Assembly (NCBI GenBank): GCA_016791475.1
Contig: JAEUWI010000012.1
Coordinates: 62,001 to 126,000 of the forward strand
Origin: Candidatus Hydrogenedentota bacterium
Lineage (GTDB): Bacteria; Hydrogenedentota; Hydrogenedentia; Hydrogenedentales; JAEUWI01
Direction: 5' to 3'
Length of the DNA: 64,000 bases
The notes beneath the pieces are model-generated. The model made no database searches. It was not told where the DNA came from and saw only the letters and a program-made list of their open reading frames with translations. Of this stretch, positions 44,215 through 45,553 are shown one piece after another (position 1 is the stretch's first letter; each line of letters opens with the position of its first letter). A program made the translations under genes and the position numbers.

Positions 44215-44643
44215 GCGGGGATGGAAGGACTCGCGCCCGTGACGTATGCGAGCGCCGGACGAGTTGCTTCATTTCACTCCCTTGTCCGGACAGTGGGATC
44301 GGTAGCGCGCGAGCCCGTCCCAGTGGATGGGTTAGGCGACTCGGGCGGTCAATCGCGTCTCGCCCGGTCGCTGGCAGTTGTCGGCGGGCACAAAAGGGCC
44401 CTTCGAGTGCCCATTGCTGTGGCAAGGGTGCTCCGCCAGGGGCACACGAACCGCCCTTTCGGGCGGATCGCGTGGCACGCTTGCTGGTTGACCGGTGTAG
44501 GAGATAGTTGGCGAAGCTGCTTTACATCCCTTAGGACATGCCGCCGCTTTGGTGTGGGCTTTGCCCGGCGGGGTGGTTGGTAGGCGTTGAGTGTTGCGCT
44601 TGTGAGGGCGGGAGCCCTTGCGGCGGTACGTCCCCAAACTGAA
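44215..44643. other. Non-coding region left of the tRNA-Asn/GIY-YIG cluster
   Basis: 429 bases. Several overlapping frames exist on both strands, but none has a ribosome site, a recognisable motif or consistent codon use. Short GC-rich dyads (CCCTTTCGGGCGG; GTGCCC/GGGCAC) are present. I see no gene here. Confidence 0.4.
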
Positions 44644-44760
44644 CAGGCCATGCAGCGTTTACTGCATGGCCTGAAATTTATTGGCACCTCGGACAGGACT
44701 CGAATTCGCCTTCGGCGAACCTTTGGCCTGTGATTCGCCGCAGGCGAATTAACAGCCGCC
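44644..44760 (-). pseudogene. tRNA-Asn relic 1 with terminator hairpin
   Basis: Read on the minus strand: GGCGGCTGTTAA (anticodon arm, also the end of the GIY-YIG gene), a 15-bp palindrome TTCGCCTGCGGCGAA (44734-44748), TCACAGG, a second palindrome TTCGCCGAAGGCGAA (44705-44719), then the tRNA 3' end through GGTGCCA (44682-44704) and the terminator stem (44644-44673). Only the part after the D-loop is present, so it cannot form a tRNA. Confidence 0.75.
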
Positions 44761-45021
44761 GTCTTTCTGGAGGAAATTGGCTTTGATCCAGTCGCGCCCT
44801 TGCCCGGACTTGAGATGCTTTTCCCTATTCATGGCTTCGCTGCGAGAGCTGTAAGCCTCTGAGTGAATGAGCTTCCACGGACCCTTGTTCCTTTTGGTGT
44901 ACATTGTGAACCGGCAGTTTACGTCGTTGTGTTGTTCCAACCGTTTTCCCAGGTCGGATGTCTGACCAACGTAGGTTTTTCCCGAGCTTTCTGAGCGCAG
45001 TATGTACACGTAGAATTGCAT
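44749..45021 (-). CDS. GIY-YIG nuclease family protein, copy 2
   Basis: 90 residues from ATG 45021. Single-domain GIY-YIG fold: MQFYVYILRS (FYVYIL = the Y-Y pair), KTYVGQTSDL, RLEQHN, the TKRNKGPWKLIHSEAYSSRSEAMNREKHLKSG segment with the catalytic Arg and Glu, ending KDGGC. It is of the short UPF0213/URI type found in many bacteria. About 85% identical to the copy at 45147-45419, from which it arose by tandem duplication of a 398-bp unit. The last codons and stop lie in sequence matching the tRNA-Asn anticodon arm. Confidence 0.92.
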   Translation of the reverse strand: MQFYVYILRSESSGKTYVGQTSDLGKRLEQHNDVNCRFTMYTKRNKGPWKLIHSEAYSSRSEAMNREKHLKSGQGRDWIKANFLQKDGGC

Positions 45022-45041
45022 GCTATCTGCCCGAACGAAAA

Positions 45042-45158
45042 CAGGCCATGCAGCACGTACTGCATGGCCTGAAATCTACTGGCACCTCGGACAGGACTCG
45101 AATTCGCCTGCGGCGAACCTTCGGCCTGTGATTCGCCGCAGGCGAATTAACAGCCACC
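45042..45158 (-). pseudogene. tRNA-Asn relic 2 with terminator hairpin
   Basis: On the minus strand GGTAGA, then GGTGGCTGTTAA (matches the intact tRNA from D-loop to anticodon loop with one small indel), palindrome TTCGCCTGCGGCGAA, TCACAGG, palindrome TTCGCCGCAGGCGAA, then the T-arm remainder and acceptor through GGTGCCA (45080-45102) and the terminator stem (45042-45071, T-run beyond). The 5' third of the tRNA is replaced by the GIY-YIG gene. Confidence 0.8.
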
Positions 45159-45419
45159 GTCTACCTCGAGGAAATTGGCCTTGATCCAATCCCGCCCTTG
45201 CCCGGACTTGAGATGCTTTTCCCGTCTCATCGCTTCGCTTCGAGAAGGGTGGGCCTCGGCGTGAATCAGCTTCCAAGGGCCCTTGTTTCTCTTGGTGTAC
45301 AGGGTGAATTGGCAGGTCAGGTCATTGTGTTGCGCGAGCCGTTTTTCCAAGTCGGAAGTCTGGCCAACGTAAGTCTTTCCCGAGCTTTCTGAGCGTAGTA
45401 TGTACACGTAGAATTGCAT
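45147..45419 (-). CDS. GIY-YIG nuclease family protein, copy 1
   Basis: 90 residues from ATG 45419: MQFYVYILRSESSGKTYVGQ, LEKRLAQHNDLTCQFTLYTKRNKGPWKLIHAEAHPSRSEAMRREKHLKSGQGRDWIKANFLEVDGGC. It has the single GIY-YIG domain with all core residues. It begins 17 bases after the tRNA-Asn terminator stem. Its last codons (V-D-G-G-C-stop) coincide with the D-loop to anticodon-loop sequence of tRNA-Asn, so the coding end appears to be formed by tRNA sequence. Family members are nucleases or repair-like proteins of unclear biology; tRNA-directed mobility is an inference. Confidence 0.92.
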   Translation of the reverse strand: MQFYVYILRSESSGKTYVGQTSDLEKRLAQHNDLTCQFTLYTKRNKGPWKLIHAEAHPSRSEAMRREKHLKSGQGRDWIKANFLEVDGGC

Positions 45420-45435
45420 GCTATCTGCCTGAACG

Positions 45436-45469
45436 AAAACAGGCCATGCAGTATCTACTGCATGGCCTG
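45436..45469 (-). terminator. Terminator of tRNA-Asn
   Basis: Stem CAGGCCATGCAGT/ACTGCATGGCCTG with a 4-base loop (45440-45469), followed on the minus strand by TTTTCG. The same stem follows both relics, with compensatory loop changes. Confidence 0.88.
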
Positions 45470-45477
45470 AAATTTAC

Positions 45478-45553
45478 TGGCACCTCGGACAGGACTCGAA
45501 CCTGTGACAGGGTGGTTAACAGCCACCTACTCTACCAACTGAGTTACCGAGGT
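45478..45553 (-). tRNA. tRNA-Asn (GTT)
   Basis: 76 bases on the minus strand with encoded CCA. Acceptor arm ACCTCGG/CCGAGGT, D-arm with GTTGGTAGAG, anticodon arm GGTGG-CTGTTAA-CCACC giving anticodon GTT, T-arm CAGG-TTCGAGTC-CTG, discriminator G. All stems pair. It is the only complete tRNA in the window. Confidence 0.97.

Follow-up and report, generated by a model that had tools for sequence, protein, structure and literature searches.

Small stand-alone GIY-YIG genes are common in bacteria and are mostly annotated just as "GIY-YIG nuclease family protein". In the window, that is, the whole stretch of 64,000 nucleotides that was analyzed, two such genes follow a tRNA-Asn(GTT) gene in tandem, and each of them ends inside a partial copy, or relic, of this tRNA. 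The question raised by the locus is what kind of element is built in this way and what role the GIY-YIG protein has in it.

A tandem array behind tRNA-Asn

Read on the minus strand, the array runs from the intact tRNA-Asn(GTT) through a hairpin, gene 1, relic 1, a terminator, gene 2 and relic 2 to a final terminator, with the following features:

45478..45553, minus strand: intact tRNA-Asn(GTT) (ARAGORN; Rfam RF00005, 66.8 bits; genome search)
45440..45469, minus strand: terminator-like hairpin 3' of the tRNA, 13-bp stem (sequence repeats)
45147..45419, minus strand: GIY-YIG gene copy 1, 90 aa, stop codon TAA inside relic 1 at the anticodon-loop position (ORF; Pfam)
45080..45165, minus strand: tRNA-Asn relic 1, comprising a D-loop/anticodon part, two palindromes and the tRNA 3' end to CCA; overlaps the end of gene 1
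45132..45146: TTCGCC-NNN-GGCGAA palindrome, anticodon arm of relic 1
45103..45117: TTCGCC-NNN-GGCGAA palindrome, T-loop of relic 1
45042..45071, minus strand: terminator-like hairpin, copy 2
44749..45021, minus strand: GIY-YIG gene copy 2, likewise 90 aa, with 87% identity to copy 1 (ORF; Pfam)
44682..44767, minus strand: tRNA-Asn relic 2, anatomy as in relic 1, with 3 differences in the 70 nt 3' of the stop codon
44734..44748: anticodon-arm palindrome of relic 2
44705..44719: T-loop palindrome of relic 2
44644..44673, minus strand: terminator-like hairpin, copy 3, the end of the array
44642..45437, minus strand: two 398-bp tandem units (44642-45039 and 45040-45437)

The intact tRNA-Asn(GTT) with its terminator and the GIY-YIG gene behind it, which had been recognized in an earlier, sequence-only reading of the locus, were both borne out: ARAGORN reports a continuous, uninterrupted tRNA gene, which is the one full-length tRNA-Asn match returned by a genome search, and PF01541 is found in both 90-aa ORFs (E = 1.7e-18 and 9.2e-18). 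The same reading had described a repetition of the whole 398-bp unit, and the direct repeats indeed start at 44642, 45040 and 45438, exactly 398 apart, with 86% identity; the remainder of the tRNA to CCA, the two palindromes and the copy of the terminator are present in both units. The source genome contains two copies of the GIY-YIG cassette only, both in the array. Gene 1 ends with GGTAGAC-GGTGGCTGTTAA (the terminal sequence of unit 1 being ...GGTAGACGGTGGCTGTTAA), where GGTGGCTGTTAA is identical to tRNA-Asn from the anticodon stem to the anticodon loop and the stop codon TAA of the gene is the TAA of that loop. The proposal that the anticodon loop donates the stop codon is confirmed in this way, and in many other loci, too, the stop is supplied by the tRNA copy; the proposed equality of gene end and tRNA is exact for unit 1 only, because the match in unit 2 is slightly decayed (AAAGACGGCGGCTGTTAA), with one change within GGTGGCTGTTAA and further changes before it.

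Each relic retains the tRNA from the D-loop or anticodon arm to CCA and carries one palindrome after the anticodon loop and another in the T-loop. Palindromes of the TTCGCC-NNN-GGCGAA type occur four times in the window, all in the array, versus 0.02 expected, and the relic palindrome type has 13 occurrences in the 7.7-Mb genome. At 44443-44477, some 165 bp away from the array end, lies a repeat of the form CACACGAA-[palindrome]-TCGCGTGGCAC, which contains a relative of the relic palindrome; this repeat is also found elsewhere in the source genome and in tandem in its congener G001 (L194, L195, L204, L208).

In the 90-aa protein, the Pfam match spans residues 3-72, with no further domain and, in particular, no separate C-terminal DNA-binding domain detected by Pfam. 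Y17, G19, R27, H31 and E67 are invariant among 22 homologues, and the conserved Tyr, Gly, Arg and Glu of the catalytic domain are present. The nearest solved structures by sequence are those of the UPF0213/YhbQ-like stand-alone GIY-YIG proteins 1zg2 and 1ywl.

Linkage to tRNA genes, isotype-matched clades and empty sites

Searches by sequence alone collected loci with 151 distinct GIY-YIG genes or gene pieces, most of these loci coming from metagenome assemblies, and their tRNAs were called by ARAGORN alone. Two subfamilies separate cleanly: class A, to which the window protein belongs (136 bits to the class A profile versus 46 to that of class B), and class B, which is UPF0213-like (GFTKKY...NPEWKDL). 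The class A profile comprises 22 sequences, most of which are tRNA-linked, but these were gathered by sequence and not by neighborhood, and linkage was tested in a second phylum that had not been used to start the search. In this phylum, a tRNA gene on the same strand is located within 500 bp of 37 of the 44 class A genes scoring at least 80 bits and of all 18 scoring at least 95 bits, versus none of 22 class B genes with a tRNA within the same distance (Fisher 8.6e-12 against 37/44), the linkage expected by chance being roughly 1-2% if some 50 tRNA genes per 4 Mb are assumed (our estimate). In all 84 tRNA-linked class A cases, the tRNA is on the strand of the gene, and 78 of 88 tRNA-near genes are bracketed by a tRNA that is intact and a relic of this tRNA. 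Where the intact tRNA is missing, a tRNA relic is still present at most class A genes, whereas none of the 22 class B genes has one.

The sequence-only reading had suggested collecting short GIY-YIG genes from other genomes and had named two outcomes that would speak against it, namely, the lack of tRNA linkage in relatives and a match of gene end and tRNA in one copy only. Neither was obtained, because linkage in relatives is very strong and the gene end matches the tRNA at several other loci.

Two of the collected loci (L029 and L042) have GIY-YIG matches inside longer ORFs (548 and 308 aa) of another type than the cassette genes. General GIY-YIG matches yielded a third group of stand-alone proteins with a tRNA within 500 bp in 12 of 25 cases, mostly tRNA-Ser. 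The tRNA-Ser genes in this group (L162-L191) have several anticodons, and some loci contain tRNA-Ser 3' pieces downstream.

On the protein tree, the tRNA isotype changes 18 times (minimum 10), versus a mean of 51.3 after shuffling, with 0 of 200 shuffles as low. The protein clades follow isotype (Asn, Met, Gly, Ser and others) across phyla, with Met and Gly each forming a single well-supported group, on a tree in which the deep branches are not resolved because the alignment is short. The largest Asn clade combines members of the window's phylum, the second phylum and a Syntrophobacterales genome, and a Desulfobacteraceae sequence is among the members of the Asn clade to which the window belongs. 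Tandem units are also present in the genomes G212 and G175, and the cultured species Marixanthotalea marina carries a cassette at tRNA-Pro (L012).

The search for empty sites that had likewise been suggested was successful in congeners. In G002 and G003, which belong to the same genus, tRNA-Asn has a terminator and adjoins the ThuA-like gene that also neighbors it in the window, with the cassette absent from the site and no class A match in either genome. In G001, the cassette is located at tRNA-Asn in another context, and no ThuA-like gene is found within the 1.5 kb examined. An altered host tRNA (A10-U25 in G000 and G001) was considered as an immunity mark and rejected, as other occupied tRNA-Asn genes have G10-C25. 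No vehicle was seen: the relatives in phage and plasmid collections are weak, with no tRNA at the three plasmid-collection matches examined, and a search of viral contigs with a single protein returned no relatives.

Given that tRNA genes are common attachment sites, the cassette could be of benefit to the host, for example, as an anti-phage or tRNA-locus maintenance nuclease kept beside a protected tRNA or a phage or island attachment site. This would be in line with the finding that the tandem amplification driven by the phage enzyme SegB (see below) can be adaptive (PMC13096335); the patchy distribution, with empty sites in congeners, argues against such a use, which also leaves the anatomy of relic and palindrome unaccounted for, and we consider it very unlikely.

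Anatomy of the relics and selection

Across relatives, the cassettes come in two architectures. In type I, the intact tRNA is followed by the gene and then by a relic extending to the tRNA 3' end; in type II, which is the mirror image, a relic that starts at the 5' end of the tRNA and stops near the T-loop precedes the gene and the intact tRNA follows. Most relics consequently lack one strand of the acceptor stem, being 3' or 5' parts of the tRNA. The type I stop codon is usually part of the relic (25/35); in tRNA-Asn relics, it is repeatedly the TAA of the anticodon loop (position 36 or 37). Some type II genes have their stop codon in the D-loop of the intact tRNA. Rfam contains no family for the relic according to an Rfam search. 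Break of the relic at the SegB T-loop motif was considered as a universal rule and rejected, most type I Asn relics keeping the T-loop.

A perfect hairpin of at least 6 pairs is found in 50 of 71 relics versus 6.5% of shuffled relics. When Asn relics were extracted by anchoring on the tRNA flanks, blind to pairing, 16 matches were obtained, one of which is an intact tRNA; in each of the other 15 segments, the outer six pairs are all formed, the usual sequence being TCCCGCC-NNN-GGCGGGA with a variable loop. Among relatives, the palindrome substitutes positions 24-34 in Asn relics, the anticodon arm in Asp, Val, Ala and Pro relics, and the D-loop, region 38-49 or the T-loop in Met relics; a T-loop palindrome also occurs in the window and in one Lys locus. 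The two palindromes that had been described as inserted are thus present but not incidental: each takes the place of a tRNA arm at a defined position, and the stem is constant whereas the loop varies. Multiple tRNA relics, some without a gene and with differing palindrome loops, are seen at L106, L112, L016, L011, L025, L027 and L057.

Of the silent sites, 47% differ between the two tandem genes, as do 7.5% of the replacement sites, which corresponds to a dN/dS of 0.106; a similar value of about 0.11 is obtained against the G001 gene. Both genes are under purifying selection, with dN/dS of about 0.1, and the excess of silent over replacement differences indicates that both proteins have been maintained and that the duplication is old. 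The earlier reading had allowed for the protein to be either an endonuclease or a passenger; a neutral passenger is unlikely because of this purifying selection and of the clades matching tRNA isotype. The 70 nt 3' of the stop codon, mostly palindromes and the tRNA piece, show 3 changes versus 13 at 30 fourfold sites (Fisher 5e-6), and in comparisons between genomes whose silent differences amount to 0.7-0.9, about 90-100% of the comparable relic positions are unchanged (49/49 for L110/L122 and 55/57 for L135/L148, for example). Gene conversion from the intact tRNA could keep the tRNA parts of the relic but not the palindromes, since the intact tRNA has none. A disabled, palindrome-bearing tRNA copy that is better kept than silent codon sites poses a clean puzzle.

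Tandem tRNA duplications and unequal crossing-over are common, and an alternative account would be passive, with the tRNA duplicating, the GIY-YIG gene hitchhiking between the copies and the spare copy decaying, as gene-less relics at some loci might suggest. However, the arrangement recurs in many lineages with isotype-matched clades and in 0/22 of class B, the genes are under purifying selection and the relics are better kept than silent sites, all of which had already placed this account in disfavor, and we give it little credence.

The conservation of the relic could also reflect a system acting at the RNA level, in which the protein would bind or cleave one tRNA species and the relic in the 5' or 3' UTR of the gene would be an uncleavable mimic that regulates or neutralizes it, as in tRNA-mimic autogenous control or type III toxin-antitoxin systems. 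Such a system would agree with the isotype specificity, with a relic that in either architecture is located in what is presumably the mRNA of the gene, with conserved relics and palindrome stems alongside varying loops and saturated silent sites, with the anticodon arm being the one most often replaced and with the arrays of several relics at some loci. Nevertheless, it accounts neither for the near-constant adjacency of an intact tRNA nor for the insertion-like look of the empty alleles; a relic devoid of one side of the acceptor stem cannot take the tRNA fold, the predicted fold of the window relic being a single long hairpin, and cutting of RNA by a GIY-YIG domain would be unusual. We regard this possibility as unlikely.

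Proposed mechanism and comparison with known elements

The adjacency of cassette and tRNA, the bracketing, the isotype-matched clades, the empty sites, the conserved nuclease residues and ORFs and the conserved relics with their palindromes are direct observations, and the anatomy fits a tRNA-restoring insertion into a tRNA gene. Judging from sequence, we read the array, with a probability of roughly 0.55, as a tandem pair of minimal, tRNA-parasitic and tRNA-restoring homing-like cassettes with an isotype-specific nuclease, the cleavage and mobility being putative. The cassette would consist of a single-domain GIY-YIG gene and a partial, disarmed copy of the cognate tRNA gene. The nuclease would recognize and break or nick the DNA of the cognate tRNA gene, and the break would be repaired from a cassette-bearing copy, the left side pairing with the intact tRNA of the donor and the right side with its relic (mirrored in type II). 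Because repair would pair with the donor tRNA on one side and the relic on the other, the gene would be copied in and a full tRNA restored. Unequal exchange among the tRNA, relic and terminator copies may then give rise to tandem arrays like the 398-bp pair. The palindromes, standing in for tRNA arms, would prevent the relic from being a tRNA and probably shield it from recutting. The element that had been proposed earlier, one that inserts into tRNA-Asn or duplicates by recombination at it, is consistent with the tRNA linkage of relatives and the empty sites, the cutting and movement remaining predicted parts of the proposal. Three points count against the homing reading: a target lying wholly within the tRNA should still be present in the intact copy, which would expose the host allele to cutting; the conservation of palindrome stems beyond that of silent sites is not predicted by simple homing; and the protein lacks the separate DNA-binding domain that Seg and I-Tev enzymes usually carry.

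The closest parallel is SegB, a free-standing GIY-YIG enzyme of phage T6 whose cuts fall inside tRNA genes and which, by way of homology between the ends of tRNA and segB, causes tRNA-Tyr and segB to be amplified together in tandem in a recombination-dependent manner (PMC13096335). As with SegB of T-even phages, a free-standing GIY-YIG gene lies beside tRNAs, tRNA and nuclease form tandem units and the 3' end of the gene is homologous to the tRNA at the unit borders. Unlike SegB, the cassettes reside in chromosomes of unrelated bacterial phyla, encode a single-domain putative nuclease of about 90 aa, form clades that follow isotype and lie between an intact tRNA and a partial copy with palindromes. 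With Seg-type homing endonucleases in general, they share the GIY-YIG residues, a location outside introns and inteins and gene-free alleles at the same site.

Elements with a tyrosine integrase (phages, ICEs and islands) likewise have an intact tRNA on one side and a fragment on the other and preserve tRNA function, which integrase-type elements restore by carrying the 3' half of the tRNA. The cassette differs in that its fragment is interrupted by palindromes, in the mirror form with a 5' fragment and in the lack of an integrase gene, since the whole unit of 398 bp fits one 90-aa gene only, the GIY-YIG gene. The UPF0213/YhbQ-like proteins have the same domain and size, but the class B genes tested are never by a tRNA or relic (0/22). 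Group I introns with GIY-YIG genes in tRNA genes also combine such a gene with a tRNA gene, but the tRNA of the cassette is uninterrupted, and an Rfam search with E up to 10 found no group I intron family, tRNA alone exceeding the cut-off.

No description of such an arrangement in bacterial chromosomes was found in the open-access literature searched, and the cassettes apparently represent an undescribed family of minimal selfish elements living on tRNA genes in several unrelated bacterial phyla. We tentatively suggest, at somewhat less than even odds, that they form a distinct new class of bacterial elements, in which a GIY-YIG nuclease for one isotype is combined with a conserved, palindrome-substituted tRNA copy as a functional component, serving either as a homology arm resistant to cleavage or as a regulator that mimics a tRNA, and which would have spread over several phyla in lineages each holding to one isotype. 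If a large subfamily of these genes indeed represents isotype-specific tRNA parasites of about 400 bp, such genes would gain a target and a testable mechanism, tRNA homing of the SegB type would extend from phages to chromosomes, natural nucleases specific for single tRNA genes would be at hand, and recurrent tRNA pseudogenes and tandem breaks in assemblies would be accounted for.

The palindromes also occur outside the relics. Sites of the TCCGCC-NNN-GGCGGA form number 222 versus 3 for the control in G212, 168 versus 17 in G001 and 37 versus 14 in G000, and they are near background in the cassette-free congeners G002 and G003. In the second phylum, the median excess is 5.2 per Mb in genomes with the cassette versus 1.4 in those without (p=0.0007, not corrected for kinship). 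Short palindromes with a fixed stem and a variable loop, dispersed in many cassette genomes, resemble REP sequences, and the GIY-YIG protein might mobilize them as RAYT does REP, the tRNA relic being one landing site. This would agree with the dispersal in several cassette genomes, the near-background counts in G002 and G003 and the higher excess in cassette-bearing genomes of the second phylum. Unlike in REP/RAYT, the link between palindrome and GIY-YIG gene is a weak correlation, and the unit contains no ORF for a RAYT (HUH) tyrosine transposase; G203 has 175 palindrome copies versus 0 for the control with no stand-alone GIY-YIG match listed, G035, G046 and G061 have the cassette and essentially no excess, and the relic palindrome takes the place of a set tRNA stretch instead of landing at random. 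RAYT-like mobilization was therefore rejected as contradicted by these genomes, and the reading built on it is quite unlikely; random dispersal as the full account of the relic palindromes was rejected as well, 15/15 Asn segments being paired at one tRNA position. In our view, the palindromes are a separate repeat family that relics use or resemble. The dispersed copies often sit inside other repeats; they are highly dispersed in G212, G203, G199, G201 and G001 and nearly absent in close relatives of others.
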